From positions 30,419,673-30,483,672 of the forward strand of contig OX243814.1 of the NCBI GenBank assembly GCA_945859605.1: a stretch of 64,000 nt of DNA, given 5' to 3'. Position numbers and translations under genes: made by a program. Origin of the DNA: Lumbricus rubellus (Eukaryota > Annelida > Clitellata > Crassiclitellata > Lumbricidae). The notes beneath the pieces were generated by a model. The model was not told the DNA's origin. It saw only the letters and a list, made by a program, of their open reading frames with translations, and ran no database searches. How positions within the stretch are numbered: the first letter of the stretch is position 1; every line of letters begins with the position of its first letter. Shown here piece after piece: positions 4,919 through 61,706 of this stretch.

Positions 4919-4921
4919 GGC

Positions 4922-29767: not shown

Positions 29768-29801
29768 ATGGCCACAACGTCAGCATCAACAGGTGCTACA
29801 G
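29768..29801 (+). CDS. Exon 1 (start codon; 11 residues)
   Basis: ATG in the context AATAATGGCC starts [11 protein letters not shown]. The exon ends in ACAG|GTAACA with one base of the next codon. That phase exactly matches the giant exon's acceptor (TTTTTGTAG|TC at 31,370/31,371), giving a Val at the joint. Bases upstream may be 5' UTR or hold another acceptor (TTGTGCAG near 29,719). The assignment is inferred, because an 11-residue exon cannot be recognised by homology. If wrong, the first in-frame ATG in exon 2 is at 31,508. Confidence 0.45.
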
Positions 29802-32800
29802 GTAACAATAAATTCTAATCGTCTCGTTATAATGCTCCATTTGCGCTGAGCAGATTGAACGCATTGTTCAGTATTTTGTCAGCCAAAACAAATCCGCCGC
29901 ACAATAATCGTTGCCAGACAATTGAATTGATAACCACCTGGAGTCTGGAGACCTTCCCCGGAAGACAGTAAACGTCCAGTGGAAATATATTAGTTTGAGC
30001 AGCTTTCATCTTTGATCATGCTGAACGAAAAGCTTTCTTTGCGATGAAACAAATGGTCAGGGTGAGAATTGCCGGAGGGGTTTAACCCCCAGTCTTTCTT
30101 AGAGCCCCATAGTAAAATATGTTTTTCACGCCCCAATTCCAAGTGTTTAATGGTCCAACCCCAACCTCATTTATTTTTCAAAATTCTTACACTACAAATG
30201 GCCGAAATAATAGGCCTATTAGGCCTATTTCAAATGTTCAAATGCTGATAATACGTGAGGCGCGACTATCTATAGGCCTACTCAATTAGCCGGTACATGT
30301 GTGGCACTGTGGCTTAACAACAGTTATGGACTCTGATACAAAATCTTATACAATTTCAGGTCGCAAAGTATTTTCATATAAACTTTTGGTCTTTCTCACA
30401 AACATGGGCGTAGGCCTACATGTGACTGTGAGTCTGTGATATAATTACACATGCAATTGCCAATTTTTAATACTGCAAACTGTGTTGTAAGTGCAGAACC
30501 TGATTAGACTATGTGTGATGAAACATAGGCCTATCTGGTAACCCTTCATAAATGTAGATATGACATTTTAACACAATTAACCACGTTTACAATAGAAAGC
30601 TTTGCGATGCGTATCGCATAGGCCTACACCGTAATCTCCAAATTTCTAAATCGCCACTCGAAAGCCAAGCGCAGGGCACCAGCTTATTCCTTAGCGTTGC
30701 GTGGATATTCTGCATCAACGAATTATCTTTGTATTCTGGTGAAACAATAGTTGATTGTTTGATGACAAATAATCACGACAATGAACGTTGAACATGTGAT
30801 CATATGTCGGGGGCTATGGATAGGAATTCATTGCTTGGGTTCTGCATATTTCGGAATGCCCGCCCTTTGTGACTTTTTCTAATTAGGTCTATGATTTATA
30901 TGTTTAAACAATGCTCGCTAACTGAGAACAACGCTCTATTCTTAACATCAGTTAGGTTACCGTAGAGATTGTCTCTGACTGGTTTCGTATTACATGTACA
31001 TGGTGCAATATAAATTTACATGAACAATTGGCATCTTATCTCATACTCATTAGGCCTAATTCCCGAAATTTATAGCACCCATTCAAGGGACCTACTCGAA
31101 GGCGCTCCCGGCCCAACAACAGCTAAAACAGTAAGATTTTTGCAACTTATAAAATATCCTACTGGTGCCGCAAGCTGCTTATTCGCAACCATAACGACCA
31201 AGACTTGTGCCGCGATGTTGACTGCAGTTATTTGCTTCTCAAATATTATATTCTTTTAAAAGCCTCTAAAGCTGAAACAAACGATAAAAGTAACCAGATT
31301 TATAAATTTAAATATTGAATTCTAAATTTTGTTTGAGTAAAAGACACCCACAATGTGTCGATTTTTGTAGTCGAATCGTCCGAAGGCGAGACGGAGATAT
31401 TGCAGTCAACATCCGATGCAAGTCTAACATTGCGCGACTCACACGAACATTTCTTGGACTCTGCTGCACTGGCTTCCCGTTCCGATAGAAATCTCCTGTA
31501 CGACGAAATGGCACGACAAGTGACGGACGAGGTCCTACAGAGCAGCATAGCGGCGATGAAACAGTCAATTCAGCATAACGGAGTGGCTGGCAGTGGTGGT
31601 GGTGAGCATGGCTGGTTGGAAGCCAGTGCAGGGACTCTTCATCCGAGGTCATACGTTCAGACGGAGAGAGTGGAGATTCGGAACACGACGACGAGGAGGA
31701 GACAACGTCCCGTCGTTAGTCTGAACCTCGCCGAAACAGTTGGAGAGTACGACGGGCAGGAAAGGGCGTCCGCCGTCTCTCTTGTCCAGCAGACGAGTGC
31801 TGCTCCGTTCCATGTGGAAGTGGAAGAAGAAGCTGTTTCATCCTATTCGACGGAAGTTGGAATGTTTAAAGTGCCAGGCTCCATGAGAAGAGAGCTGGGA
31901 GGGATCTCGTTGGGGAAAGCGGACGATAGCATCCGGAATGAGGATGGACTGGACGAAAGACCAACTGCTGTGGGTAGAGACGAAAACGAAAATATGCTCA
32001 GTGAATATGGTAGAGTGAGACTTCTTGGAAGCGAGACAGACGGACGATTTGATTCCGAATCAACCAACCAGGTTGAAGATGCTTACCGAGAGCTTGCGAA
32101 ACGTGTGGCCGACGAAGTACTTCGAAGCAGCGTGAAGTCACTTGAGCAGCCGCCGATCTCGTACAGCGGAATTTCAGACGAGAGTAGCATTGACTGGCTG
32201 GGAGCCAGTGCAGTGAGTCACTTCAGAGTGTACGTTCAGACGGACAGACTCAACTCACGGATCGTAACTCCTCATGCGGTGGATGATCGAAGCCGGGGCA
32301 GCAGGGTAGCCGATAAACGTCCGATTTCCTTTACTCGGAGTCCTAGGATGAAGAAGCGAGTTGTGATTCAGGTCGATCCAGTGGATGTTGTCTACCAGAC
32401 GACGCTAAAGGTGGATCTGGTTGATCGTCTGGCTGAGCGAAAGGTCAAGTCAGAGTCGTTGAAAGTCACTCCAGTGGAAAGTGATGCCGAACAGACCATA
32501 CCTCGAACTTCTGATTCAGAGATTTCTACGACGGGTCATATTACAGTCGATGGAGGGAGTGTCATCACAGGCGGTGAAATCTTACACGACCGCGTGCAGG
32601 ATTCCCAAGCGCAACTGTCAAGAGAGCAAAACGACAATGCATCGCAAGAGACTTTACAGAGCGCTACAGACTTCAGTCAAGCAACGACAACTTGGTATAC
32701 TGACGGTAACATTCAACTCCCCACGTTCTATGATCAACATGACATTGATCGCGTTGCAGCAGTCAAGGACAGCTCTACTGAGCAGGAAGAAGAAAAAGAA

Positions 32801-35800
32801 GATTCCTCAGATAACTTTAAGTCATCCACCGAGATATTTTCAAAGACTTCACCCGATGATTTCTCCACCAGAGAAATCTCTCAGCTTTCAACTTCGTCTA
32901 TTCAAGAATCGGACGCGTGCGGTGTGCTGGACGATGACGACGACGACGAAGAGGATGATGATGGTATTGAAAGACCAGGGAGAGCTGTACGGTTATTATC
33001 AATAAAGATGACTGAAGAATTCCCCACCAGAGAAACTTCTCAGCATTCGGATTCCTTTATTCAAGAATCAGACGGGTGTGGTGTGTTGGATGACGAAGAG
33101 GAAGATAACGGTACTGAAAGATCAGATAGATCTGTACGGCTGTTGTCACTAAAAATGAATTTACCTGAAAGGGAAACTCCAAATTTAGATTTTCGTGAAG
33201 ATCATTTTGCAGATGCCGAGCTTCCTGCATATCTCACGCAAACAGAAACTCACGAAGATGCAGGTTCATTGGAAGGATCACGAACGCAAGCAATAGACTC
33301 GTCTGAAGAATTCAAACCAACCACTTCCAGAGATGCTGAGATTTTGAGAGACTCTGAGCAACGCTCAACGGAGTCACAGCAAACTGAAACGATGACAAAA
33401 TTGTCGCTTGTTCCAGTATTTGACAGCAGTGATTTTGAGGAGCTATCAAGACAACAGGATACTGAAACTCATGTTCAGTATCCAGCGCATCATGCAGCTG
33501 CGCAGCAACAAATCATCGCTGGACACGAAATTCCAGGGGATGATTCCAAACAGGAAGCTTCGGGAGATTCCGGAAACGAAGACGAAGATGACGACGACGA
33601 CGTTTACAACGCTCACCACAGAGAAGTCAGACTCGTCTCGTTGAAGGTAACATCTATGGACGATGATGAAGATCAACTTATTAATCTACCAAGTCGTCGA
33701 GGAGATCCACTTAATGAATTCGATGTTGAAGAAGCAGGGGCATCAAAGAAGAAAGGGAAACCCGCAGACGACCTTTCCTATTCGCTTGGCGCGGGAGATG
33801 GGCAATCTCCAGAGGAAGGCAGGGAGGATATGGAAGGGTTTTGGTCGGAATCTGATGAAGAGGATGGGTACAATGAGGAATCTGAAGAACTGGTGGTGAC
33901 AAGGAAAGAAGGCAGCAGCAGCGAGGCTGTCGTAACAACCCCGGAAAGAAAGGTCCAAACAGTCGTCGTGGATATCCGGAACAATCGCAGGGAAGACGGA
34001 ACTGTCGGAACGACTGAACTAGCCGAGGAATTTGCTGACGGCGCAGAAGCATTAGTGATCGGAAGCGAACTAACAGACAACTCTGCCACCTTCCCAGAGA
34101 ATGTGGGAGCAGCTGAAATAACGGCTCACAGCGAGGCTAAAATAGTGTTGGAAGCTGAAGGTAAGGTAGATCAGGACACGACGTTTGGTTCTAGAACAGT
34201 TACTAAGGACGATGATAAAACGTTGTTTCAATTGCCTATTATGTTTCAGACAAGTGTTCCAGGTCTACTTGGAAGTGACGACCGGAAGAATGAAGACGCG
34301 GAGAATGATTCTCAAGATGAGAAACGTGAAACTTCAACTTTACAGGAATCGACGGTTGATGAACGTAGTAGCATCCAGTTGCCAGTGTTCTACCCGTCTA
34401 AAGATGCTGAAGCAGGTGAGGTGGAGGAATTGCATGAGTCGTCAGAAGAGGATGAAGATGGTGACAGGAATGAGAGGAAAGTTCGGCTGCTGTCGCTGAA
34501 GATGACTTCACAGGAAGACACGGACAAAGACATCTCAGAATTGAACGAAGATGAGAATGAGGAGGCAGAGGATACGTTCCAGATTTCTGATGAAGATGAC
34601 GAGAACTTGGAAACATCTGGCCGAAGTGTTAGACTGCTTTTCTTGAAGATAACCGGTGATGAGGCTGATGACCAAGAACGCTCCTGGCCAACAGCAGCAG
34701 CTGCTGTCGATGCTAAGGCAAAGGATACATTCCAGGTTTCTGACGACAGTGAGGAGGAAGCTTCAGAAACTCCTGGACGAAATGTTAGACTGATGTCCTT
34801 GAAGATGACCTCGCTTGACAATCAGATCCAACAAGTCTCCATTCCAGCAGACTCCGCAGCTGAGAGGAAAGATGAACCATTCCAGAGTTCCGATGAAGAC
34901 GACGAAATTCCGGAAGCAGCTGGTCGAAGTGTCAGACTATTGTCTTTGAAGATGACATCTTCACTCGATGATGAGGATGAGGGTATCGCTGTTGCAGGAC
35001 CATCTGAAGAAGCCGCTACAGAACGTGCAACATCTGAGCACACCGTAAAGACGGAGATTCCTCTCGAGACTCACCTTGAAGGATCAGAAGCATTTGCAAC
35101 GTTCGATTCAGACACTGGTAGACAGCAGGATATCTTAAGAGATCGTGTACAGGAATCACAGGAGCATCAATTTCAAGACTTGCATAAATCGACATCGCAG
35201 GATATTCCAGACGAGAGCAGACCAGCTTATGGCGACGATTTTGCTCGTCAATCCCATATTGAAAATCGTTTTCAGTTGCCGAAAGATGAAGGTGAACCGG
35301 AGAAAGATCACGAAGACGAAGACGATCTGGCGGAGGTTTCTAAAGGCAGAGTCAGGTTAGTTTCAATGAAGTTGACGTCATTCGAGGACGAAGATAAAAT
35401 TCTGACGACACCAAATTTGTCTGAAGATAACATAGAACAATTTTACGACAAAACAATTAATAAAGAGCAAATTGAGAGACAATCAGAAATAGGTCAATCG
35501 CAAGTTCAAGAGACTGACGCTTTCGAAATCGGTGCACATCCCGAAGAAAGTGATGATCCGAACTATTCCACGGACATTGGAATGCATAAATTTCCTACTG
35601 ATAGGAGGAAAGAATTGGCGGGAATCGTCGGAGGAGAGTTGTCGGCTGGTTCGGATGAGAAGGAAGAAGAAACAGATAAACGAATTGCGAAAGACGAATC
35701 TCAAGAACATAGAGAAGAGTTGTACAAAACTTCAGAAGGTGAAGTCTCAGATAAAAAGTCAGTTGAGACAAATCGTCCAGCAGATGAACATGGCAGTTTC

Positions 35801-38800
35801 CAATTGCCAGCTTTCTATCCGTCCAAAGAAGCTCAAGTAGAAAGGGAAGAAAAGACAGAAGAGAAGACGCTGCAAGATTCATCTGAAGAAGACGAGGATG
35901 GTGAAAAAGGCGAGGGAAGAGTTCGGCTTCTGTCTTTGAAAAAAGTAACTTCACTTGAAGATATGGACCAAGACAACTTCGAACCAAAGCAAGATGATGC
36001 AGAGGTAAAAGAAACATTCCAGTTCTCCGATGAAGAGAACGAGGACTTTGAAGCACCTGACCGAAGCGTTAGACTGATGTCTTTGAAGATGACCTCACTT
36101 GAGGATTTCGAACAGGAAATCAATGTTAGTAGACCCTCAGAAGCAGTTACTAGCGAACTTACAACGTCTGTTCCGATAATAGAGGCTGGTATTGCGCAAG
36201 AAGAACAAGTAGAAAGTGCACAAGACATATCTCGAATTCAAGAAACTGCAACTTTTTATATCAATCCAGAATCTAGAGAAACTGAAGATCCGAACTATTC
36301 CATGGATATTGGAATGTACAAATTTCCGTCGGACAAGAGGAAAGAATTGGCGGGAGTCTTTGGAAGAAAGTCATCAGATAGCTCGGATGAGAAGGTAGAA
36401 GCCACAGACCAAGGAATTGTGTTAGAAGAACCAAAGAAAGATGAGGCAGAGGTAAAGGAAACATTCCAGTTCTCCGATGAAGAGGACGAGAACTTTGAAG
36501 CACCTGACCGAAGCGTAAGACTGATGTCTTTGAAGATGACCTCACTTGAATATTTCCAACAGGATATCACGATTGCTAGACCGTCAGAAGCAGTTACTAG
36601 CGAACTTATAACCTCTGTGCCTATAATAAAGGCGAATATTTCACAAGAAGAACAAATAGAAAGTGGACCAGAAATATTTCAAGTTCAAGAGACTGCAACT
36701 TTCGACATCGATACACAATCTAGAGAAGCTGATGATCCAAACTATTCCACGAATATTGGAATGTACAAATTTTCATCAGACAAGAGGAAGGAATTGGCAG
36801 GAATCGTTGGAAGAAAGTCATCAGATAGTTCGGATGAAAAGGAAGACGACATAAAGGATCGAATTGTGAAGGAAGATTCTCCCGGTAGCAGAGAAGCATT
36901 GCACGATAAAACTTCAGATTTACCTATGGAAACTGCCATTGTCAATTTTCCTGAATCTCAAATTACACCTGGATTTGGAAAAGAATTATCTTCACCAAGT
37001 GAGGATAGCGAAACCAAAGACAAAGGGGCTCTTGATACAGTAGAGTTCAATGACGAATATGAATTGAAACAACAGAAAGAGGATAAAATAACACTAACCG
37101 AATTACCAACGATGTTTCAGACAGGTGATCAAGTCAGTGATGATAGAAACGAACAGAGAGAATTGTCTCCATGGGAGAAACTTGAAGTAACAGCAACACA
37201 CGAAGTCTCAGATAGTGCACTTGAAAAGTCAGTTGAGACAAATCGACCAGCAGATGAACATAGCAGTTTCCAATTGCCAGTTTTCTATCCATCCAAAAAA
37301 GCCGATGCAGAAGAGGAAGAGAAAGCACTGCGAGAATCATCTGAAGAAGAGGAGGATGATGAAAAAGGCGATGGAAGAGTTCGGCTTCTGTCTTTGAAAA
37401 AAGTAACTTCACTTGAAGATATGGACAATAGCATCACCGAACAAAAGGAAGATGAGGTAAAGGAAACATTCCAGTTTTCCGATGAAGAGGACGAGGACTT
37501 TGAAGCACCTGACCGAAGCGTTAGATTGATGTCTTTGAAGATGATCTCACTTGAGGATTTCGAACAGGAAATCAATGTTAGTAAACCCTCAGAAGCAGTT
37601 ACTAGCGAACTTACAACGTCTGTTCCGATAATAGAGGCTGGTATTGCCCAAGAAGAACAAGTAGAAAGTGCACAAGACATATCTCGAATTCAAGAAACTG
37701 CAACTTTTTATATCAATTCAGAATCTAGAGAAACTGAAGATCCGAACTATTCCATGGATATTGGAATGTATAAATTTCCGACAGACAAAAGGAAGGAGTT
37801 GGCAGAAATCTTTGGAAGAAGTTTATCAGATAGTTCGGATGAAAAGGTAGAAGCCACAGAACAAGAAACTGCGAAAGAAGAACCAAAGAAAGATGATGCT
37901 GAGGTAAAGGAAACATTCCAGTTCTCCGATGAAGAGGACGAGGACTTTGAAGCACCTGATCGAAGCGTTAGACTGATGTCTTTGAAGATGACCTCACTTG
38001 AAGATTTCGAACAAGATATTACTATTGCTAGATCGTCCGAAGCAGTTACTAGCGAACTTACAACCTCTGTGCCTACAATAGAGGCCGATATTGCTCAAGA
38101 GCAGCAAGTAGAAAGTCCACCAGAAATATTTCAAGTTCAAGAGACTGAAACTTTCGACATCGACTCACAATCTAGAGAAGCAGATGATCCAAACTATTCC
38201 ATAGATGTTGGAATGTACAAATTTCCATCAGACAAAAAGAAGGAGCTAGCGGGAATCTTTGGAAGAAACTTATCAGATAGTTCGGATGAGAAGGAGGATG
38301 ACACTAAGGATCGAATTGTGAAGGAAGAATCTCACGTGAGTAGAGAAGCATTGCACGATAAAACTTCGGATTTACCTATGGAAACTGTCAGTGTCAATTT
38401 GACTGAATCTCAAATTACACCTGAATTTGGAAAAGAATTATCTTCACCAAGTGAAGACAGCGAAACCAAAGAGAAAGGGGCTGTCAATGCAGTAGAGTTC
38501 AATGACGAATATGAATTGAAACAACAGAAAGAGGATAAAATAACACTAAGCGAATTACCAACGATGTTTCAGACAGGTGGTCAAGTCAGTGGTGACATAA
38601 ACGAACAGAGGGAATTGTCTCCATGGGAGAAACTTGAAGTAGCAGTATCACACGAAGTCTCAGATAGTGCACTTGAAAAGTCAGTTGAGACAAATCGTCC
38701 AGCAAATGAACATAGCAGTTTCCAATTGCCAGTTTTCTATCCATCCAAAGAAGCTCAAGTCGAAAAGGAAGAGACGGCACTGCAAGAGTCTTCAGGTGAA

Positions 38801-50800: not shown

Positions 50801-53087
50801 GTCAATAAACGACTACTGTCAATAAATGACTACTTTCAACAAACGACTACTGTCAATAAACGACTACTGTAAATAAACGACTACTTTCAACAAACGACTG
50901 CTGTAAATAAACGACTACTGTCAATAAACGACTACTGTAAATAAACGACTACTATTAATAAACGACTAGGCTACTGTCAATAAACGACTACTGTAAATAA
51001 ACGACTACTGTTAATAAACGACTACTGTCAATAAACGACTACTGTAAATAAACGACTACTGTTAATAAACGACTAGGCTACTGTCAATAAACGACTGCTG
51101 TAAATAAACGACTACTGCCAATAAACGACTACCGTAAATAAACGACTACTGCAAATAAACGACTACTGTCATTAAACGGCTACTGTAAATAAACGATTAC
51201 TGTCAAGGAACGGTTACTACAAAAAAAGAATGCTTCCAACGATTTCCTTTCAGGAGGGTTCCCGTCGCCGTCCGCCTGCCGCTCCTAGAAGCGCTGAGGC
51301 GATCGCCCTGTCCGCCAAGGCCCAGTCCATCAAGGCCAGTTCGGAGTTCCTCCGCAAGGACAGCAGACCTGTGGGAGCCGTTGGATTCGTTGTCGTCAGC
51401 AATGACGTCAGCATTCCGCCAAACGACTTCTTCACTCCAGGCAGAGTGTTCGAGGCGCGAATCAAACACTCGTGCTTCCCAGGTCGGTCAATAAATAAAT
51501 TGTTAGACATTCACAGTCCTTGAATACAGTTCTACTCATGGGAAATTTCACAATTTCAATTATAATTTTATAAACAGACTCACTGCTATGGCCTGCTAGT
51601 TCAATACTGGGAATGTCCCAACGCAGAGCGTTGAAAATTTATTGGGGCATCTGCTTGAAAATTATATTAGCCGACGTACATTGTACAATAATGTACATGT
51701 ACAATTGTACATGTATGCAAAAAAGAAATGCATAATCTACATAGGCTACATTGCTCAAGCTCGATCCTTTACCATCATTGGGCCCTCCTTGTGGAATTCT
51801 CTTCCCTCCACTCTGCGTGGGACTCTACTTTCTGGAGCCTTATCTACATCTCTCTCCTTTCTTAAGACCCATTTTTTTCTCCAGAGGTTATCGCACTGGG
51901 AGCGCTACTGAATGGCCTCGACTGTGAGCGGCGCTATAGACATTACTAATTACATTACATTACATGAGTTCATGCGTGCAAAGATCTTTACATTTACTAG
52001 CAATACATTATAGCCTACATTTGAATTGTTGTCCAGCTTCCAGTGATGATCGTCGTGCGAATTTCAAGACGATGTCGATAAAGTTGGGCGATCACGACAC
52101 CGAATCACCGTTCGACCTCGTCCTTCAAACGGGTCAGATCAGTCCATACTGCAGCGCTGAAACCATGGACCAGTTCCAGACAGCACTACGCACTGGAAAA
52201 GCTCAGAACATCCGACAGGCAATCATCACCACGCCCGCATGGTAAACAATTTTCATCGTCATCATCATTGTCGTCGTCATCATCGTCGACGCCGTCGTCG
52301 TCGTCATCATCATCATTGTCGTCGTCATCATCATCATCGTCATCATCATTATCATTGTCGTCGTCATCACCATCATCATCTTCGCCACCACCACCACCAC
52401 CACCACCACCACCACCAACACCACCACCACAACCACCACATCACCATCATTTCACCATCATTTCACCATCTTCATCATCATCATGATCATCATCGTCATC
52501 ATCATCCTCATCATCATAATCATCATTATCATAAACATTATCATCACCACCACCACCATCATCGTCATCATCATCATCGTCATCATCATCATCATCATCA
52601 TCATCACATAATATAAATGATTCTCATCAGCATCCTCTGAATCGTTGATTGATAACTTTAGCGCTGAGGCAGTTTTGGACGGCCTGCGAGTCCTTCCAGA
52701 GTCCTACTACGATCAGCACTACTACTCACCAGTCATCTACCACTTCCGGTCAACAGAAGGCAACCGGAAGTACCTGGCCCGCTTCAGGGTCATACCGAAA
52801 GACGGGACGAAGGAGACAGGGCGCCTCTTACCAGAACAACACGCAGACAGTTGGACTCTCCTGTGAGTATCCATTCTTACTCAACGAAATAAATTAAATT
52901 AAAAGAGAGCTACACATGGTAACACCACCGTCAAGTGGTACGTCATTGGTGGTAGATTACGCATCGTCCGGAAAATTTTCAGTGTCTGATGATGGTTTTC
53001 ATTGTCAAAGGCTGACCCGATCTCACCCTTGATGACGGTCAAGATCACACCGGAAAACCCTGTTGTCTCATCGCCATCAATGTCAAA

Positions 53088-53118
<31 letters not shown>

Positions 53119-53122
53119 GTGG

Positions 53123-53184
<62 letters not shown>

Positions 53185-56100
53185 GTGATGGTGATGGTGA
53201 TGGTGATGGTGATGGTGATGGTGATGGTGATGGTGATGGTGATGGTGATGGTGATGGTGATGGTGATGGTGATGGTGATGGTGATGGTGATGGTGACGTT
53301 GGCGGTGACGGTGAGGATGACGGTGACGATGCTGATGGTGGTGTCGGTGTTGGTGCTGCTGGGTGGTGTTGGTGGTGCTGGTGGTGTTGGTGGTGGTGTT
53401 GGTTGTGGTGTTGGTGGTGGTGTTAGGTGGTGGTGGCGGTGTTAGGTGGTGGTGGCGGTGGAGGGGTGGTTCGGTGATGGTGGTGGGGGTGATGGGGTGG
53501 TGGTGTTGGTGTTGGTGTTGGGGGTGGTGTTGGTGGTGGTGATGTTGGTGGTGATGGTGGTGATGATGATGGTGGAGGGGTGGTGTGGTGATGGTGGTGG
53601 TGGTGGAGTTGGTGGTGATGGTGATGATGATAATAATGATGACGTCGACGTCGATGACAATGATGATGATATTCATCAACAGCAACTCCTGTTGGTTTCT
53701 TTGTTGCTCAACTCTTTGCATAACTATGGAAAATATGTCTAATTGCTTATTTCGTCGAATTTGCAATTGTTTAACACCACATCGACCCATATTGAATAAG
53801 GAACTATTATAGCAAATGTTGGGGAAAGCGCAGAGGATGTTCTGTCATGTGCAATGTGCATCTTCAGGATGTTTTGGTAATTGAGATGGCGCCCTGAAGC
53901 AGTGTAACCGAATCTACGCTATAGCTAAACTGAGCAAGTACACAGTCAGTATGGCTGCAAGGTTAAAACTTTAGACAGTTGGTTACTGTGCTAAAATAGG
54001 AAACATATGAGGATCACAAGAATCTCATATAGCCTTTCAAATCGAGTCACGGCCATCGTTTATCAAACCACGATGTTTAACCCTGTTAAAGCTGAACTGT
54101 TGTTTTGACTTACTGTGCAACAACACGTCAATATCACTTTGGAAAGACCCGATGGCTAGTAACGTTGACTGTGAAGGGTGTATTGTGCATAGGTCCTAAA
54201 CCCAGAGATGAACATAATATTATAATATATGCATGGTTTTTTATTATTGTACGTTGGCGTCATAGATAGATATATATATATATATATATAATATATATAT
54301 AGTATTATAGACATAGAGAGCAGAGTCTACAGACGTCAAAAGCAAATTGAATAGTTTCACGTTTTATTGAATCATAAGAGAATGAGTCATTGCCACGTGT
54401 GACTTGTGCCACTCCCAAGGTCACTTGCATTTATAGTCAGTAGCTAATTTGCATTGGATAAAAGTTCTGAGTGGTGCATTTGTCTATTGTCTAATATTGT
54501 CTATTGTTATTTTAATTGAAAAGTCATTTAGCATTGTTGGTCGTTTGCAGACTATCTATAGCCTAATTGCATCAAACCACGATTCATTCGTGACCTCGTT
54601 CTATCTTGAAGATCGGAAGTTTATAATAGCATTCAGTTTATGTAACCAAGATCACTAAATTAGGCCCAATTAGGAAGGATGAGGCTAGAAGAAGAGGTGC
54701 CATGGTTGGAAGAAGAGGCGGCAATAATATCTAAGGACAGAGACAGCATCTATGGAGAAAGCGAGGATGAAATGTACGCCTAATTATCCGTACACATGTA
54801 GCAGTATATAATAATTGGAAAACCTGTGTATAGAGAATCTGAACAAGCGAATCTATCTGATTGTTCGACTACAACAAGAGATATTATTGATTCAGTAACC
54901 ACTGTTTTGGACAACCCATTTGGCTATAGACTAGGCCTACAGCACCCGCGAATGAGATGGTGCCCCATGCTTGGCGTTCGAGTGCCGCTTTAGACATTTG
55001 GAGATTACGACTACGAGTGATTCACGCATCGAAAAGCAGATTCTGATATTCTTCAGATTCAGTAATTTAGAGATTCAGATCCGTACCTTCAGATGTTGAA
55101 CTTCCGCAGATCGCTCTTCTCTGGCACTTGATTGTACTTTTTCAGACTCTGTGCCGGTTTCACTGAAATTCTACAAGTAGAGACCGGAACAAATGCGATT
55201 TCGTGAATCGATAGTCACAAATGTCATCTCAGATTGCATTGTTAGTATGACATGTGTCACGACTGTGGTCCAGCTGCCATTCGTGAAAATGTCACAAACA
55301 AGACAATAATTATAGGCCTACTTTTGCGGCGTCATCGACTGAATCTTTTTGAATGCATTGTTTTAAAGACAAGGTTTGTGCCTACGTTACCAAATGATTT
55401 GACATTTTGAAATCACGTGGTCTACGTTTACTTTACAGGTCTCCGGATTACGTTCCGCAAACATCAAAACCGATCGACTACCTTCGCAATGAATACAAGC
55501 GCCGTTTCGAAGGCACGGACACGACAAGCAATGAAACACCGGAGTACGACATCCAGATTCAGCTGCACGAGATCCCTCACGGCGATACGGACAAGACGAA
55601 TAAGTGGTACAACCCTTTCTTCGTCTGGAACGAACCCTACCACCCATGGTTCAGCCTGGCCACCCTGACCACCTCCGACCTTCTACCAGGGCGTAGCACG
55701 AAGTCCACCCAGTTCACCGTAGCTCGTCTTCCCAGTAAGACCTTCAGCTTCCCTGCGTCCTCCTCCACGCAGGACTTCAACAGCGTCCCTGAGATGCTGG
55801 CTGTAGCAGCCACTGGTGACCAGGTGATGGGAGTATCAGCCACGGCTACTGCAGCTCATGGAGTCAGCGCTAAACAGGCTGAGTATTATCTGTACTGCGT
55901 GACGGGAGATAGGATGTCAGCTGGAACATTGGGTGACGTCTACGTCAGCATCGTAGGTAAGGAAGACAAGAGAAATGATAAATTATAATTACGGTAATTA
56001 ATTACAGGGTCCTTGTATCGACTGTAAGGAGTTAGGCACTAAGCGATCACTGGTTTTAAAAAATACAGTGATCTACAATGAAACATAGAATGAATTAGCG

Positions 56101-59100
56101 TGCATGTCCTTACATGAATACCAATCAATCAATCAATTAATCAATCAGTCAGTCAGTCAAACAATCAGTCAATTAGTCAATCAGTTAGTCAATCAATCAG
56201 TCAGTCAATCAGTCAGGAAGCAAGTCAGTCAGTCAGCTAGTCAGTGAGTTGGCGGCTCAATCAATCAGTCAATCAAGCAATCAGCCAGTCAATCAGTCGG
56301 TCAGTCAGTCAGTCAATCAATCAGTCAGTCAGTCAATCAATCAGTCAGTCAGTCAGCTAGTCAGTGAGTAGGCAAGTCAATCAATCAGTCAGTCCGCCAA
56401 ACAATCAGTCTATCAGTCAGTCAGTCAATCAATCAGTCAAGCAAGCAATCAGTCAGTCATTCAGTCAGTCAGCCAGTCAGTCAACCAGTCAATCAATCAA
56501 TCACACCAATCAATCAATCAATGAATGGGACACTTGATTTCATTGCAATATTGAAATACATTGTAGGCACGACAGGACGAACCGATTACCATAAGTTGGA
56601 GCCAAGGTACAAGACAGACTTCGAACGCGCGGGAAAGGCAACGTTCGTTATTCTCGACAGGCCAATCGGGTACTTGCGCTACATGAAGTTCTTCAAGGAC
56701 AAACACACGACGACGACGTCCAGCGATTGGTACTTGGACTACGTGATACTCAGTACTCCGTACAACAACAAATCCTACACGCTACCTGTTTACAGATGGC
56801 TCACAGATGAAGTCAATCTCCTCTCAGTTCGAGATGGACCAGGTCAGCTAACTTCAATTTTGCATGAAATAATATAGAGAATTGAATATTTTTACCTACT
56901 GCTGATGAGCAATGGAGGCCAAACTGAGAAAGACTGTTGTGATGATTCTGTTAATTTGCTGGACTATTATCGTAGTAGTTGTGCTGTGGTAGGCCCTATG
57001 TCATGTGCTATAATTGTTAACTGGTTGTAACTCACAGATAGTCAATTTTAATTGTAGGCCTATCTGACGTATGCGACTTGTTTTGTTTTTCCTCTGTTGG
57101 CAAATGAGTTGGTCTAAGTTCTGTAAATATTCCAATGAAAATGTGAAGAATGAAGATGACAGACGCTGCACAACACAGTGTAACTTCCCGTACACCTAAC
57201 TTTTCGACTTTTACACCCGCGAAACGAAATCTATCTATGCAGTTTACTGCATCCGCGATGAAACACACGAATTAGGATTTGACGTTCATACTGGCTGCGT
57301 CGTCAGTAAAATTAATTAATTAATTAAATTAATTAGTTGTTGTCTTATAGGCCTATTATTATTAGGCCTTGGGCCCATTTTAGACTTCTGTGCTTCTAAG
57401 CTTCTATAGCCTACCCTCTTCCGGAACTACATGTATGCGTGTTTCGTTCTTACAAAGTTATAATAACAACCTAACTTCCTGCAAATCTAATGGGAGAATA
57501 TCCAACTAAAGTTTATATGGCTATTATAATGAATTAATCTTCGGATTCGTTAAATGCTTACGACAGTTTAAACTTATTTGCAGGAATCTTGCTCGGCTTA
57601 GAAGGTCGCGACGACATGAAAGTCCAAAGAACTCTGGAAGTTTCATTTCGTCAACAGCAGCTGAAATGGCGCATCATTCACGGCCAGAATCCTTACTCCA
57701 TGTTACCCGGATACCTACAGAACGGAGAACAGCTGAGCACCATTCCAGGCGATCTTCAGTCGGATGCAGTCGGTCCACTGGAAATACAGTGGAGGGAACA
57801 CAGGGCTGGAAAGTTCTCGCGTAAGCAGAGTATATCCATTATCTACCATAATAGTAGTCTGCAATAGTTTGTGAGGCACGGTGGTGTAGTGGTGGCGTCG
57901 TTGCCTTGGAGCCGGAAGATCCGAGGTTCGAATCCACCTCGCCGTGTAAGGACCTTGGGCAAGTCCTTCACTCACAAGTCACAATTGCTCAGCGCTTCGG
58001 CGTGAAACTCCGATGCAGTGTCCGCTCTGCATTCGGGAGCGCCTCTGAGTAGAGAGAGCTTGCCTTGGAGCCGGAAGGTTCGAGGTTCGAATCCACCTCG
58101 CCGCGTAAGGACCTTGGGCAAGTCCTTCACTCACAATTATTGCTCAGCGCTTCGGCGTGAAACTCCAATGCAGTGTCCGCTCTGCATTCGGGAGTGCCTC
58201 TGAGTAGAGCGCTTGAAGGGGCGCTATAAAAAAAAGTGCATATATAAATAGTCATACGAATGCTTATAACATGCACAAGTTCAGCAACTACCTCATGTCA
58301 TGCGTTGTCATACAATTACATAGTCCAGACAGACCTGTTGCAGCCCTCTATGTAATTATAGGGTAGGCTTATTTTCTTGGATTCTTATGCCTTAGGCATG
58401 ATACTCTGAGTTCTTGTTCTTTAGGAGCCAAATAGAACTATAAATTAAAAATGCGACATGGCACGATACTATTTCCTTAAAAGTAAAAACTTTCACACAA
58501 AAAATACAGGGCCTGTAGCTGCAGAAGTGTAAGGAGCCAACATGAGAGAATGACTTGATCTGACTGGTAGGCCTACACAATTGAGTCTGGCTGCGTAGCA
58601 AACCACCGAACAGGAGACTTATAATTATTAGGCCTATAGTCGTGTGTATTGTATGAAATTGCTTATGTGTTTAGGGTGGTCTTTTTTATGTCTGAACACC
58701 CTCCCGAAACGAAATAATGTATAATGAAATAATACATTTACTAACACACGATGTAAGAATTAGCCGATAGGATCGCTAATTTTGAGGCTCTTTTATCTAG
58801 GTTATATTTCTAAATTAACAATAAATTTGATCACGTCGATGATCTAATCTAATCAAGATGAAAATGCTGAAGTGCTTCTCGGCTTGCTCCAGATCTATAG
58901 TAAACATCCACCCATCCAAACAAAGTTGTGGCTATACTTCCATGTGTTGATGTGTACATGTATCGCATGTTGTTTGTTCTAACAGTTTTCAAGACTATCA
59001 TGAAGTTCTTTACTTCGCGAAAGGCAACGATCAGCGTTGAGTTTGAGAAGACGTTGGCCGACACGATCGCTGACAAGTATGAGAACTCCAAGGTCATGGT

Positions 59101-59897
59101 TCACATCCTCCGCAACTGGAGAGAGGACACGGAATTCGCCAGACAGGTAAGACATATAGGCCTATAATTATATGCCTACCTGTGGGCCCATGTAACAGTC
59201 ACAAGATGCACTCGCCGCCTCATAATTAACTATAGGCGTGCTAAATGGTTTTGAGCCACAATTGTAGGCCCTTTAGCAGACTAAAATGTTCATATGCAAT
59301 GCATCATACTACAATTAAATCATTGTACCGGGTATGCCATTATGTATACAGGATATATTTATGTACATTGCACATGATAGACTCTATGTATATTTATACC
59401 ATTTTATGTATTGTGTTTATGCCTGGATAATAGCCTCTAGCCGGTAAAGGCATACGGACTGTACGTTCATGTACATTATAAACAAATGCACAATGTACAT
59501 ACATGTATATGTAGGCATACAGTAGTTCGAGTTTTTCTGGTGCTATAAGGCTTAATGATGATTTGCGATTACAGCTTTATTGTGCTTTTTGTTATTACCA
59601 CTGCTACTGCTGCTGTACGGTAACTGTTGTTATGTTTTTTATTTAGTTGTTATTAGTGTCGTTGTTATTGCTGTTATTATCATGATTATAATACTACTAT
59701 TATTATTGACATTATTGCGTATGCCTGTCTGATCTTTTATCCTTTTCTGTTTAGCTAATCAACGGATGTTCGCCGTTTCGTATCCAGCGATTGGATGTCA
59801 TTCCAGCGAATTTCCGAGTCACAAACGAAATGGTTCAGGATCGACTGGGACCAGGACGAACACTCGAAGGAGAGATGCAGGTTGGTAATTATTATTA

Positions 59898-59964
<67 letters not shown>

Positions 59965-61706
59965 CAATTTAATCTGAATGATTATGGGCTCAAAATTATG
60001 TAAAATTACAAAGCGCATAATTATTCGTGTTATTCTTAATAAGACCTAGGACTATTATCACTATTATCGTTATTGCTCATTCATTCATTACGAAGATTTA
60101 CATAGCGCCCCTTCAAGGTCACTATACTCAGAAGAGTAACTGAAAACATGCCTCTTTTTGGTCTGCATATTGCTGGCAATGTTACTTTTTGCCAGTCCTG
60201 TAAACATTATCTTCTTTTAATTTTATATACACCGTGGTTCAAAAAAAACTAAGCCAAATTGTTTTTCATATATCTCTGATGCCTGATAACATATCACGCT
60301 AAAATTTTCCAAATATTTAGAGAAGTGGACCAAGAATATGATTCCAAAATTTCAAGATATAAAATTGAACGGATAAAAAGATATGAATCTTTCAACTTCA
60401 TATGCCGAAATTGCAGTTTACAAGCAATTTTCAACCAGATTCAGTAAAAAGTAAGCTAAACTGGTTTTCTTATATCTCCAATGCCTGATAATTAATCATA
60501 CCAAAATTTTCCAGATATTTAGAGGATTGAACCAAGAATAGGATTCCAAAATATCATGTCTTAAATTTGAAAGGATAGAAAGATATGAATATTTAAACTT
60601 GATCTCCAGAAATGTCTGTTTTCAGCAAGTCTGTTATGGTGTTCGTTGCGGTTTCGATGCTTGATAGTTCCGAATTTTGGTCTTCATGGATGATGAAGTA
60701 AAATTAATTAATTATAAAGTGTGGAGCGTGATGTAAGACCGAATCTACCAAACAACAATCCATGATCTAAAGTCTAAACGATCTGAAGCAACCAGCGCTT
60801 GTTGGAAGTGTGGGATGGCCTGGACCAGTGGATAATCGACGATGCTGTTGCGTAATGCATGGCGCCAGCGCTTCCAGGCTTGCGTGCAAGCAGGAGGACA
60901 TTTTGAGCATCTTAATTAATTAAATAATAAAACCATACTGTTGTAATCATATTGTTAGTTCAATTCTCTACATATCTGGAAAATTTTATAATGATTAATC
61001 ATCAGGCATTAGAGATATAAGAGAACATTTTATTGAACCTGACAGAAAATTGCTTGTAAACTGAAATTTCGGCATATGAAGTTTAAAAATTTATAGCTTT
61101 TTAACCGTTCAACTGTGTCTCATGAAATTTTGGAATCATATTCTTGGTCCACTTCTCTAAATAGTTGGAAAATATTAGCTTGATATGTCATCAGGTATTT
61201 GAGATATATGCAAAACAATTTGGCTTAGTTTTTTTTGAACCACGGTGTATATATGTATGGTCTAATAAGTAGATTTTGGTGTTTTTTTGCAGGATGGTCG
61301 AATCTTCCTAATTTCGTTTCCAGATCTTCTTGAACCTGCAATAATCTGCTTGGCTGAAGCAGGTAGGCTAATTGTTTCTCCTTGAACCTATCCTATATGG
61401 AAACTTTTTGTTTTGTTTTAGGCTTAGAGTTATGTTGCGCCAACTTATATTTGTGTGACTCTTTAATACTGCTTAAAAGCCTCTCCTATAGCTGCTAGAT
61501 AGTGATTGGTGCAGTATCTTTGTGACTGCGAGTTACCTGAAAACATAGTATAGTGTTCTCACACACACACTTAAGCGTGCATCAACAGAGGTGAATATCG
61601 TCTGGGTTTGTTTCAGATGCCAGTCGAAGCAATCAGAGGAGACCGAAAGGAAAACTTCCACCGAGATTCATCTGCGCTCCAATGGTACTGCTCTATTCGA
61701 CCAGAG
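29768..61706 (+). CDS. Gene model: giant repeat protein fused to AOS-like, PLAT and lipoxygenase domains (13 exons, 3' end outside window)
   Basis: Exons: 29768-29801, 31371-49394, 50166-50296, 51254-51482, 52037-52241, 52662-52862, 55439-55956, 56567-56842, 57584-57820, 58986-59146, 59755-59880, 61293-61362, 61617-61706. All introns are GT-AG, and all phases agree (1,1,0,1,2,2,1,1,1,0,0,1). The joined frame gives about 6,767 residues before the window ends. Residues 1-6019 are an acidic repeat region; about 6020-6400 align in order to the catalase-related domain of coral AOS-lipoxygenase; about 6425-6540 are PLAT; the rest is the start of a lipoxygenase catalytic domain. The iron-ligand segments must lie beyond 64,000. 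Family knowledge: such fusions make and convert fatty acid hydroperoxides. Inference: joining exon 2 to the enzyme exons rests on phase and on the lack of an in-frame Met within exons 3-4; an RNA read across 49394/50166 would settle it. The alternative is two adjacent genes. Confidence 0.7.
29802..31370 (+). other. Intron 1 (1.57 kb) with repeat debris
   Basis: Contains a right-half copy of the 12,366 foldback element at about 30,057-30,195 (GTGAGAATTGCCG.., CCAGTCTTTCTTAGAG, TTTTTCACGCCCCAATTCC), a dispersed-repeat piece at 30,630-30,712, and an antisense LINE/SINE tail at about 31,071-31,142 (CCTACTCGAAGGCGCTCCCG). There are several TAGGCCTA words, including a close pair near 30,212. No further exon recognised. 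Confidence 0.5.
31371..49394 (+). CDS. Exon 2: giant 18,024-bp exon encoding about 6,008 residues of acidic repeats
   Basis: One frame stays open for 18 kb. Upstream in frame there is a stop at 31,334 and an acceptor at 31,370. The frame leaves through CTCAAG|GTAGAA at 49,394; unspliced, it would end at the TAA at 49,409 after GRIQL. The product is rich in Glu, Asp, Ser, Lys and Thr, has only about half a dozen cysteines and no recognisable globular domain, so it is probably disordered. Order: a duplicated N-terminal module (residues about 40-300); a section with about 17 VRLxSLKxTS motifs (about 540-2890); an acidic Trp-containing section (about 2950-3700); 14 YDFQF repeats (about 3790-4390); 24 EFGDFGF repeats (about 4395-5535); and a C-terminal section. 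Repeat copies differ by in-frame indels only, which is strong evidence of coding. No named homologue recognised. Function unknown; a scaffold or tether is inferred. Confidence 0.92.
31499..32260 (+). other. Duplicated N-terminal module with AKAP-like amphipathic helices
   Basis: Two copies of a module: [17 protein letters not shown] (31,499-31,549), then WLEASA and YVQTER; and [17 protein letters not shown] (32,084-32,134), then WLGASA and YVQTDR. Both 17-mers place hydrophobic residues in the pattern L/M-A-x-x-V-x-x-x-V-L of PKA-regulatory-subunit-binding helices, close to the artificial AKAP-IS peptide (LAKQIVDNAI). Anchoring of PKA is inferred from this pattern only. Confidence 0.45.
31836..39690 (+). 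repeat. Coding repeat: [16 protein letters not shown] motif, 8 copies
   Basis: One diverged copy near the N-terminus ([16 protein letters not shown], about 31,855) and seven close copies between about 35,565 and 39,690, most preceded by DDPNYS. Consensus [24 protein letters not shown]. The motif is basic and is followed by Ser/Asp/Glu-rich sequence (SSDSSDEK). Conservation above the disordered background suggests a binding peptide. Function unknown. Confidence 0.8.
32960..40010 (+). repeat. Coding repeat: RxVRLxSLKxTS motif, about 17 copies
   Basis: Clear copies start near 32,980, 33,130, 33,625, 34,480, 34,627, 34,785, 34,925, 35,350, 35,920, 36,065, 36,510, 37,375, 37,520, 37,965, 38,825, 38,965 and 39,400. 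A decayed copy lies at about 39,965 ([14 protein letters not shown]) and a possible one at 32,012 ([11 protein letters not shown]). Each basic-hydrophobic motif sits between acidic stretches ([13 protein letters not shown] before, LEDFEQD after). Two subtypes alternate: [13 protein letters not shown] and [14 protein letters not shown]. Each has Arg three residues before a Ser. Confidence 0.88.
42715..44518 (+). repeat. Coding repeat: about 44-residue YDFQF unit, 14 copies
   Basis: Unit of about 132 bp: [10 protein letters not shown], then [18 protein letters not shown], then an acidic linker. Two subtypes ([12 protein letters not shown] and [12 protein letters not shown] or [12 protein letters not shown]) tend to alternate, giving a dimer of about 265 bp. 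Blocks around 42,900-43,110 and 43,440-43,650 are nearly identical, so dimers were duplicated recently or are being homogenised. One unit has a 6-bp TAGGCCTA-type insertion at 43,233-43,240 that adds Gly-Leu. Confidence 0.93.
44520..47935 (+). repeat. Coding repeat: about 35-residue EFGDFGF unit, 24 copies in three blocks
   Basis: Unit of about 105 bp: [14 protein letters not shown], then [20 protein letters not shown]. Three blocks: 3 copies (44,520-44,810), 8 copies (45,340-46,145) and 13 copies (46,600-47,935). The blocks are separated by copies of a longer module ([37 protein letters not shown]). The last block is nearly homogeneous. The minus strand of this block is also open (a 448-codon frame), but that is a shadow. 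Confidence 0.93.
49395..50165 (+). other. Intron 2 with a 20-21-bp minisatellite
   Basis: From about 49,961 to 50,148, about nine units of CCAAGTACACCAAACCATAA run almost up to the exon 3 acceptor (TTGTTTGGCTGTGTAG). The 5' half is unique. The retained-intron stop codon for exon 2 lies at 49,409-49,411. Confidence 0.7.
50166..50296 (+). CDS. Exon 3 (44 residues), N-terminal lead of the AOS-like domain
   Basis: Acceptor TTGTTTGGCTGTGTAG|AT and donor AGCCAG|GTATGC. Phase 1 in and phase 0 out both fit their neighbours. It encodes a segment ending [17 protein letters not shown]. The EIEKRQQKE part resembles the N-terminal helix of coral AOS (a Glu-Leu-Glu-Lys-Arg segment about 45 residues before the haem-site loop), in the expected position. 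It has no in-frame Met, so it must be joined to upstream coding sequence. Confidence is moderate because the exon is short. Confidence 0.6.
50606..51205 (+). repeat. Intron 3 minisatellite, 17-bp unit AATAAACGACTACTGTC
   Basis: About 34 units over 600 bp, with about 29 intact AATAAA hexamers on the gene's sense strand. Variants are AATAAATG, AACAAACG and ATTAAACG. Two units carry GGCTA and one carries GCCTA inserted at a TA (TAGGCTA at 50,967 and 51,074; TAGCCTA at 50,676). A short (CAAT)n run at 50,308-50,344 precedes it. AATAAA is the core polyadenylation signal, but use of these sites is not shown. Confidence 0.95.
51254..51482 (+). CDS. Exon 4: catalase-related (AOS-like) domain, first part
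   Basis: Acceptor TTTCCTTTCAG|GAG, donor CCCAG|GTCGGT, phase 0 in and 1 out. After a Ser/Ala-rich lead, the sequence [15 protein letters not shown], then [17 protein letters not shown], aligns with coral AOS (VGTGGIGEITIVND, HEFFTAGRTFPARLRHA). The loop that should carry the distal haem His (His67 of coral AOS, in RRATHTVG) reads RKDSRPVG here and contains no His. An in-frame ATG at 51,230, just upstream of the acceptor, could start a shorter enzyme-only protein if transcription began in intron 3. Confidence 0.88.
51740..51965 (+). mobile_element. LINE 3' end fragment in intron 4
   Basis: Encodes [20 protein letters not shown], then LKTHFFLQ and a stop after HWERY, the same tail as the LINE at 25,041 but from another subfamily. 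It ends in (ATTAC)n at about 51,945-51,963. Inserted in the sense orientation within the 554-bp intron 4. Confidence 0.8.
52037..52241 (+). CDS. Exon 5: catalase-related (AOS-like) domain, second part
   Basis: Acceptor TTGTTGTCCAG|CT (phase 1) and donor GCATG|GTAAAC (phase 2). [15 protein letters not shown] and [15 protein letters not shown] align with coral AOS (DARSFSIKFADSD, GPLDIVMNTGEANIF). The catalytic Asn (Asn137 of coral AOS, in VMNTG) is Gln here (VLQTG). The alignment is ungapped around that site. Confidence 0.88.
52242..52661 (+). repeat. Intron 5, mostly ATC/CAC trinucleotide repeat
   Basis: (ATC)n, (GTC)n and (CAC)n mixtures fill 52,245-52,615, so nearly the whole intron is simple repeat. 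Open frames encoding His or Ser runs are artefacts. Confidence 0.92.
52662..52862 (+). CDS. Exon 6: catalase-related (AOS-like) domain, third part
   Basis: Acceptor GATAACTTTAG|C and donor CTCCT|GTGAGT, phase 2 on both sides. [20 protein letters not shown], then YSPVIYHF and [12 protein letters not shown], then ETGRLLPEQ, align in order with coral AOS (VEALRRAPDTFAHLYYYSQV, YCRYRALPGD, ESGRLTEEE). The length matches the family. Confidence 0.9.
52863..55438 (+). other. Intron 6 (2.6 kb) with GAT/GGTGAT repeat
   Basis: 53,085-53,640 is (GAT)n passing into (GGTGAT)n and then (GGTGTT)n; a (TA)n run lies at 54,268-54,302. The rest is unique-looking. No further exon is needed, because the phases of exons 6 and 7 join directly and the homology is continuous across the junction. 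Confidence 0.85.
55439..55956 (+). CDS. Exon 7: end of AOS-like domain and first strand of the PLAT domain
   Basis: Acceptor TTTACTTTACAG|G and donor CGTAG|GTAAGG. Conserved landmarks are [37 protein letters not shown] and [10 protein letters not shown]. Where coral AOS has the proximal haem ligand Tyr353 and its partner Arg349 (ELRVAVYTW after DYNSIG), this protein reads EMLAVAATG, so Tyr is replaced by Ala and Arg by Leu. The end ([25 protein letters not shown]) is the first PLAT strand pair, as in VEVETGDREHAGTDATITI. Strong homology throughout, apart from the haem-site changes. Confidence 0.95.
55957..56566 (+). repeat. Intron 7, mostly CAATCAGT-type repeat
   Basis: An imperfect tetranucleotide array of CAAT and CAGT units fills about 56,110-56,522, ending 45 bp before the exon 8 acceptor. 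Confidence 0.92.
56567..56842 (+). CDS. Exon 8: PLAT (beta-sandwich, membrane/lipid-targeting) domain
   Basis: Acceptor AAATACATTGTAG|GC and donor GACCAG|GTCAGC, phase 1 on both sides. [31 protein letters not shown] and [11 protein letters not shown] match the PLAT domains of animal lipoxygenases (GRTDYLKL..NDFEAGS, DWYLKYITL, PCYRWITGDV of 5-LOX). PLAT domains place lipoxygenases on membranes, often Ca2+-dependently. The family's substrate-presenting role is known; activity here is inferred. Confidence 0.95.
57584..57820 (+). CDS. Exon 9: linker and start of the lipoxygenase catalytic domain
   Basis: Acceptor ACTTATTTGCAG|GA and donor TCTCGC|GTAAGC, phase 1 on both sides. Encodes [11 protein letters not shown], then a helix with RQQQLKWRI and MLPGYLQ. 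Position and general pattern (basic helix, aromatic, Pro-Gly) match the segment after PLAT in animal lipoxygenases, but identity is low. Confidence 0.8.
57821..58985 (+). other. Intron 9 with tandemly duplicated SINE
   Basis: Apart from the SINE at 57,874-58,260, the intron is unique-looking, with TAGGCCTA words near 58,569 and 58,630. No extra exon is needed by phase or homology. Confidence 0.6.
57874..58260 (+). mobile_element. SINE with internal tandem duplication
   Basis: The first copy is complete (CACGGTGGTGTAGTGGTGGC, B box GGTTCGAATCC, body, GGGAGCGCCTCTGAGTAGAG). It is followed at about 58,060 by a second copy starting inside the tRNA-related head (TGCCTTGGAGCCGGAAGG) and running to the tail (CTTGAAGGGGCGCTAT, AAAAAAAGTGCATATA). 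The two bodies are nearly identical, so the duplication is recent or came by template switching. Confidence 0.85.
58986..59146 (+). CDS. Exon 10: lipoxygenase catalytic domain
   Basis: Acceptor TTGTTCTAACAG|TT and donor AGACAG|GTAAGA, phase 1 in and 0 out. Encodes [23 protein letters not shown] and [14 protein letters not shown]. Family members read FMHMF, FEKIF and NHWQEDLMFGYQ at these positions (5-LOX), or WHEDRWFGYQ in coral. Confidence 0.9.
59147..59754 (+). other. Intron 10, nothing recognisable
   Basis: AT-rich, with ATT-type runs near 59,690-59,710. No repeat family or exon identified. Confidence 0.5.
59755..59880 (+). CDS. Exon 11: lipoxygenase catalytic domain
   Basis: Acceptor CCTTTTCTGTTTAG|CTA and donor ATGCAG|GTTGGT, phase 0 on both sides. 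[20 protein letters not shown] and [11 protein letters not shown] match the family signature FLNGCNPVLIRRC..LP..PVTTEMV of 5-LOX and FLNGANPVILTRCDALPSNF of the coral enzyme. The strongest lipoxygenase exon in the window. Confidence 0.95.
59881..61292 (+). other. Intron 11 with TTA repeat and a mariner-like element
   Basis: (TTA)n at 59,886-59,964, an antisense LINE/SINE tail at about 60,096-60,175 (AGCGCCCCTTCAAGGTCACT), then the TA-flanked element at 60,230-61,247 that ends 45 bp before exon 12. Confidence 0.8.
60230..61247. mobile_element. Tc1/mariner-like element with two-tier inverted repeats
   Basis: Ends CACCGTGGTTCAAAAAAAAC and its inverse (TTTTTTTTGAACCACGGTG), flanked by TA (60,228-60,229 and 61,248-61,249). 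Each arm holds two tandem versions of the same text (ATATCTCTGATGCCTGATAA and ATATCTCCAATGCCTGATAA on the left, inverted counterparts on the right), an IR/DR-like plan. Near 60,805-60,915 the plus strand retains a transposase C-terminus ([17 protein letters not shown]), typical of the superfamily. The rest of the transposase is gone, so it is a 1,018-bp internally deleted copy. Confidence 0.82.
61293..61362 (+). CDS. Exon 12: lipoxygenase catalytic domain
   Basis: Acceptor GTTTTTTTGCAG|GAT and donor GAAGCAG|GTAGGC, phase 0 in and 1 out. [14 protein letters not shown] matches the beta-strand after the signature of exon 11 (QGNIFIVDFELLD in 5-LOX, DGHIYIVDFKVL in coral). The following residues are shorter than in the coral protein. 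Confidence 0.88.
61617..61706 (+). CDS. Exon 13: lipoxygenase catalytic domain; gene continues beyond the window
   Basis: Acceptor GTTTGTTTCAG|AT and donor CCAGAG|GTCAGT, phase 1 on both sides. It ends [17 protein letters not shown], matching LQFLAAPICLLYKN of 5-LOX and IRYCAAPLALFYVN of coral. The next family segment (PIAIQLNQ) was searched for by eye to 64,000 and not found, so the following exon lies outside. Confidence 0.88.

Follow-up and report, generated by a model that had tools for sequence, protein, structure and literature searches.

In the stretch of DNA analysed here (the window, 64,000 nucleotides on contig 4 of a 787-Mb genome), an 18-kb open exon lies upstream of exons that resemble an AOS-LOX enzyme, on the same strand. 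We propose, with a probability of roughly 0.55, that both belong to one gene, predicted to comprise a short exon 1, an 18-kb scaffold exon and an in-frame AOS-like/PLAT/LOX pseudoenzyme tail.

Gene structure and splice chain

The forward strand is open from 31337 to 49411, a frame of 6,024 codons from stop to stop (31337-49408), which bears out the 18-kb open exon described in the initial annotation. Using splice-site matrices, we obtained a single splice chain from an ATG at 29768 to 61706. It is open throughout with consistent phases, so the agreement claimed from the start codon onwards holds, as does the absence of an in-frame Met from exons 3 and 4. The AOS-LOX homology noted downstream was also recovered: exons 4-12 match coral AOS-LOX (3dy5, E 1.3e-65) and exon 13 matches a paralogue. 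The gene runs 4.9 kb beyond the window, and the adjacent 10 kb past the window end (L012) was used to complete it, adding five further exons and a TGA at L012 4919-4921. Extended to this stop, the chain encodes 7,130 residues (~801 kDa); with the giant exon skipped it encodes 1,122 residues (127 kDa). In the L012 region other combinations of exons likewise stay open (30 and 10 chains). Support for the small exon at L012 3348-3403 and for the exons beside it comes from an unbroken match to human ALOX15B (E 7.1e-33), with which LOX homology reaches near the C-terminus. The features of the chain are as follows.

29768..29801, + strand: proposed exon 1; 11 residues plus 1 nt, A at -3, G at +4, donor score 2.9, without homology
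31371..49394, + strand: giant exon 2; 18,024 nt, 6,008 codons, phase 1-1 (1 nt in, 1 nt out)
49394..49411, + strand: weak donor at 49394 (score 0.3, in the top 8.1% of window GT sites) and stop TAA at 49409-49411 five codons later
50166..50296, + strand: exon 3; probable AOS-like start, without in-frame Met, acceptor in the top 2.3%
51254..51482, + strand: exon 4; AOS-like, heme positions R64/T66/H67 = K/S/R, R102 = K
52037..52241, + strand: exon 5; AOS-like, N137 position = Q
52662..52862, + strand: exon 6; AOS-like domain
55439..55956, + strand: exon 7; AOS-like, Y353 = A, R349 = L, R360 = G; PLAT begins
56567..56842, + strand: exon 8; PLAT domain
57584..57820, + strand: exon 9; from the splice chain
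58986..59146, + strand: exon 10; LOX domain
59755..59880, + strand: exon 11; LOX domain
61293..61362, + strand: exon 12; LOX domain
61617..61706, + strand: exon 13; final in-window exon, covered by the match to a paralogue
L012 1173-1649, 2147-2307, 3348-3403, 3840-4056 and 4742 to the stop at 4919-4921, + strand: five exons past the window, completing the LOX domain

Of the exon borders given in the initial annotation, the overall chain stood and two positions were revised. The acceptor placed at 31344 for the giant exon scored -4.1 and was abandoned; among those compatible with exon 1, the best is 31371 (-0.2). The top-scoring acceptor within 31337-31560 is 31489 (2.7), in a different phase, and we favour 31371 because residues resembling the remainder of the giant protein (ESSEGETE..., by eye) start exactly there. 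The giant exon is phase-neutral with an acceptor at 31371, 31338, 31344 or 31386 and fails to be so with 31489. For exon 9 the probable end is 57820 (GTAAGC), where 57829 (GTATAT) had been proposed; the frame is kept by either. Exon 1 is weakly supported: three ATG-led candidates of equal quality occur in 20.0-31.3 kb, two of them with a common donor. By eye, none of the 20 ORFs longer than 100 codons listed for 1-31336 (after removal of low-complexity frames) resembled a part of this gene.

Elsewhere in the window, 24928-25419 and ~51750-51900 look by eye like non-LTR retrotransposon tails (LHWLPIRQRIEFR, WNSLP), and 57870-58230 holds a tRNA-like element (GGTTCGAATCC) twice in tandem, with GCGCTATAAA at its end, which by eye resembles a SINE.

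Composition and coding capacity of the giant exon

The giant part is acidic, with a net charge of -913 and a pI of 4.2. Its 5' half is made of acidic-run/RxVRLxSLK cassettes and its 3' half of 44-aa and 35-aa tandem units. FxF-type repeats, counted by pattern, amount to 35 units, and the protein contains 20 FGDF motifs, placed in the tandem units of 44552-47927.

32984..39661, + strand: cassette region; 17 acidic-RxVRLxSLK cassettes by pattern, 16 with RxxS, and seven NYSx6KF cassettes
42672..44506, + strand: 44-aa tandem array (132-nt units, YDFQFRMD type); 14 units by pattern
44552..47927, + strand: 35-aa tandem arrays (105-nt units); 21 units by pattern, with longer linkers between

Much of the frame is thus repeated, and repeats lengthen open frames, which raises the alternative that the 18 kb are untranslated or open by chance. 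The minus strand, too, carries a 448-aa open frame across the tandem array (46555-47901), probably a by-product of the repeats. Every one of the listed repeat spacings is, however, a multiple of three. We determined pN/pS for four of the eight listed repeat families, two of them overlapping and the tandem arrays lying outside the set, and found 0.63, 0.44, 0.52 and 0.66 in the real frame. Values in the two other frames ranged from 0.74 to 1.35; although three of these eight are also below 1, the real frame was lowest in all four families tested. Moreover, just two short two-copy repeat families are listed for the first 1,000 codons. With these results, an untranslated or chance frame appears very improbable.

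When three pieces of the giant exon (600, 600 and 1,000 residues; 2,200 of 6,024) were searched against the whole 787-Mb genome, they gave at least 2, 11 and 11 matches, all inside their own frame on contig 4; the first look was loose, so that these counts are lower bounds, and all of its 14, 14 and 17 candidates were scored. No second copy of the three pieces was found in this genome. A Pfam scan of the giant protein yielded no family above its cut-off, and four sub-threshold matches (Rad26-like_N, EF_HAND_2_PLCG, DUF3102 and P2_C) were dismissed as composition noise. Queried with residues 1-600, the PDB returned nothing up to E 10. In viral contigs, 133 stretches matched the repeat-unit pattern, with 0 confirmed as relatives. 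AF2 models gave a mean pLDDT of 38 for four 35-aa units and 53 for a 148-aa cassette unit, both from shallow alignments (five and six similar copies). Overall the giant part looks disordered, the low AF2 confidence being compatible with disorder and no proof of it.

According to an excerpt of PMC4450067, FGDF is the core motif through which USP10 and alphavirus nsP3 bind G3BP, and acidic residues stand just downstream of it. The copies found here stand in an FGDFGFxVK context without downstream acidic residues, and a role as a G3BP-binding motif was set aside as a lead only.

Putative protein kinase A-anchoring helices

Two segments near the N-terminus of the giant protein resemble amphipathic helices that anchor the RII subunit of protein kinase A (PKA).

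31502..31552, + strand: PKA-RII-anchoring-like amphipathic helix 1; 17 residues, score 18.9, second-best window of the giant protein
32087..32137, + strand: PKA-RII-anchoring-like amphipathic helix 2; 17 residues, score 19.4, best window of the giant protein

The scoring reference consisted of seven known RII-binding helices. Left out one by one, these score 13.8-20.8, a range into which both giant-exon helices fall, and either value was attained in one of 500 shuffles. Part of the text of PMC3682517 gives the RII-anchoring consensus as LxxxAxxIVxxAIxxA. At its key positions (L-A-I-V-A-I-A), helix 1 reads Y-A-V-T-V-L-S and helix 2 Y-A-V-A-V-L-S, so that the residues are similar and identity is limited to the first A. 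The giant scaffold would probably dock protein kinase A via the two predicted helices.

The AOS/PLAT/LOX tail has lost its catalytic residues

The AOS part of the tail matches 1u5u (E 4.4e-36) and is 29% identical to coral AOS, and the PLAT-LOX part matches 5-LOX. PLAT (PF01477) passes its Pfam cut-off of 23 with 52.6 bits; the in-window LOX part, at 23.5 bits, falls just short of its cut-off (23.6). An NCBIfam search with the AOS-like part gave no match. Exon 3 has a short match of 13 residues to the coral N-terminus (shuffle p 0.01 for exon 3 alone); exon 3 together with the start of exon 4 gave p 0.038 in local and 0.09 in semi-global comparison with coral. A match of the exon 3-4 region (50166-51482) to dynein regulatory complex protein 9 (PDB, E 0.19) was taken as chance.

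The initial annotation had suggested that the giant part tethers or organises an oxylipin enzyme, and the full AOS-PLAT-LOX order with homology along the whole length would suit an active enzyme. The residues at the two metal sites argue otherwise. As given in a section of PMC5617202, the heme residues of coral AOS are R64, R102, R360, T66, H67, N137 and Y353; PMC5793058, in the part consulted, adds R349 and the LOX residues H757, H762, H943, N947 and I1066. All eight AOS positions are changed in the tail: R64, R102, R360, T66, H67, N137, Y353 and R349 read K, K, G, S, R, Q, A and L. In an alternative ungapped register the H67 position is D, and no His lies nearby in either register. The iron ligands H757, H762 and H943 are replaced by L, N and Q in alignments with 8R-LOX and ALOX15B; at the first two positions other registers show A or a gap, and none supplies a His. 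The fourth iron-ligand position is S, which alone would not matter because ALOX15B has S there too, and the C-terminal I1066 position is V.

According to the same part of PMC5793058, the second and third LOX His are conserved in 52 of 52 aligned LOX sequences, some coral sequences have a changed first His, T66 or R349, and a few carry single ligand changes. Because many positions differ at 29% identity, we read the replacements as evidence of lost catalysis and not of selected loss. The tail is enzyme-shaped but probably inactive, with both metal sites lost.

Related loci in the same genome

Searching the genome for LOX sequences returned eight matches, which fall into four loci; all nine first-look candidates were scored.

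Contig 4: window copy
Contig 6, ~9.343-9.354 Mb: parA; AOS-like then LOX exons
Contig 6, ~13.356-13.365 Mb: parB; AOS-like then LOX exons
Contig 2: parC

The parA locus keeps all three LOX His (the HxxxxH motif and the third His) as well as Y353 and R102 of AOS, and has N for H67. In parB, H67, R102, Y353 and R360 are kept (Y353 and R360 from a weak match, E 0.014), together with two of the three LOX His, the first being A. N137 is lost in parA (L) and parB (F), and so is R349 (C and W, respectively); by their sequences, these two loci are not intact AOS controls either. Their decay seems complementary, parA having three LOX His with H67 changed to N, and parB having H67 and Y353 with the first LOX His changed to A. 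The parC locus keeps the third LOX His and the Asn. Among the three AOS-LOX loci compared, only the giant-exon copy has lost Y353, H67 and all three LOX His. As a control, prokaryote genomes were searched with coral AOS: the single sequence found none, and a two-row alignment found three cyanobacterial loci (L001-L003). L001 and L002 keep H67, N137 and Y353, and L003, matched from residue 238 on, keeps Y353. With eight examined heme residues and three iron His all replaced in the tail, and some of them kept in two paralogues, the tethering of an active oxylipin enzyme is hardly credible.

No giant exon was found in the ~45-47 kb upstream of parA and parB, and the 60 kb examined at each held no gene-strand frame above 398 codons. 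Likewise, the giant protein had no match in the parA and parB regions (tblastn to E 10, low-complexity filter on).

Probable joining of the giant exon to the tail

The in-frame fusion put forward in the initial annotation is plausible: the phases agree, and once fused the frame runs through 7,130 codons before it meets the stop. The predicted junction is likely to join the giant part and the AOS-LOX tail in frame.

An alternative is that two neighbours lie on the same strand, a giant scaffold gene ending at 49411 and an inactive AOS-LOX-like gene that would start from a first exon of its own in 49412-50165. GC3 is 0.37 in the giant exon and 0.61 in the AOS-LOX exons, a gap that could mean two genes. 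The weakness of the donor at 49394 points the same way; it ranks fifth in the last kilobase and 71 among the 797 GT sites in the giant exon. When the donor threshold was set at -3, four ATG-led exons fitted exon 3, the best of the four (49808-49907) having a donor of -0.4, near the 0.3 of 49394, and two fitted exon 4. Against a separate second gene, no ATG-led first exon with a donor above 2 was found between 49300 and exon 3 or exon 4. The comparison with parB also argues for a start further upstream: the window copy needs one because its exon 3 is without Met at the place where what is probably exon 3 of parB carries an in-frame ATG. The opening residues there are MCSMGT, with an in-frame stop upstream, and the exon 3/exon 4 phase of parB is, by eye, as in the window copy. 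The match of window exon 3 to this parB stretch is weak (E 0.053 in 170 kb searched; a reverse-strand parB stretch gave E 0.24), and for parA nothing better than E 1.5 was found as an exon 3 homologue.

Signals for a transcript end at 49411 were also examined. AATAAA and ATTAAA are absent from 49395-50498, that is, within 1.1 kb past the stop, which disfavours two genes, although the variant hexamers CATAAA, GATAAA, AATATA and AAGAAA are present after it. Poly-A hexamers occur at ~1.2 per kb in nine intronic stretches (the intron with an AATAAA minisatellite excluded), and because of this background the hexamer-free 754 nt says little alone. The minisatellite, at 50600-51200 in intron 3/4 with a unit near TCAATAAACGACTACTG by eye, holds 31 of the 32 AATAAA/ATTAAA hexamers of 49395-51300. 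Taken together, these observations leave two separate genes a somewhat unlikely arrangement.

The same signals bear on a gene with two ends, in which exon 1 would be spliced either to a giant last exon with its stop at 49411 or to exon 3, giving a short AOS-LOX-like product, and the two parts would never be joined. Such a gene would fit the 1 nt carried by exon 1, which suits exon 2 and exon 3 alike, and the weak donor at 49394, but the absence of AATAAA and ATTAAA from 49395-50498 argues against it, and we consider it distinctly unlikely.

Discussion

In the single gene that we prefer, a short first exon would be spliced to the 18-kb exon to encode a disordered and very acidic scaffold of ~6,000 residues, and the scaffold exon would in turn be spliced in frame to the AOS-like/PLAT/LOX tail. 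Instead of acting as an oxylipin enzyme, the tail may be a folded module for anchoring or binding. The scaffold would dock protein kinase A through its two N-terminal amphipathic helices, and its short motifs (16 RxxS sites in the acidic cassettes and 20 FGDF) might be displayed to partners. If a phase-1 acceptor is used, the giant exon would be phase-neutral and could be skipped to give a short form of 1,122 residues, as with giant ankyrin exons. More tentatively, we suggest that a doubly dead AOS-LOX gained one 18-kb phase-neutral exon and thereby came to form the folded tail of a kinase-anchoring scaffold of 800 kDa, and that skipping of this exon would leave a normal-size pseudoenzyme in a giant-ankyrin-like switch.

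Coral AOS-LOX has the same order of AOS-like, PLAT and LOX parts, with 29% identity over the AOS part, an E value of 1.3e-65 and LOX homology to near the C-terminus. The coral protein has 1,066 residues, whereas the window copy is without the heme and iron ligands and has a probable N-terminal extension of 6,000 residues. The parA and parB loci likewise have AOS-like then LOX exons, and the phase in which parB enters exon 4 looks identical by eye; they differ in keeping some catalytic residues and in having no long open frame or giant-protein match in the ~45-47 kb upstream. To A-kinase anchoring proteins the likeness lies in two predicted helices that score like known anchoring helices; the helices here are putative, and the first 600 residues of the giant protein are without a PDB match. 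AHNAK-type single-exon giants are also repeat-built, with ~6,000 residues in one exon. AHNAK is not known to carry an enzyme-like tail.

The giant exons of ankyrin-G and ankyrin-B are described in an extract of PMC5422562 as very large, optionally spliced in frame and extending a normal-size protein. The giant exon here is similarly very large, with a length divisible by three and equal phases (18,024 nt, 1-1 with acceptor 31371). It differs from them in that the giant part is without a Pfam family above its cut-off, the host gene is AOS-LOX-like and optional splicing is a prediction from sequence. Our literature search, which covered titles and the starts of abstracts with subscription papers mostly outside its scope, found nothing, among the papers listed, on a giant AOS-LOX or on an AOS-LOX with both sites lost.

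If the proposal is correct, a whole two-step metabolic enzyme would have lost both its metal sites and joined a giant signalling scaffold, and the relatives with partly kept catalytic machinery in the same genome would offer a comparison. It would also provide an example beyond the ankyrins of a giant in-frame exon that toggles a protein between normal and huge forms.
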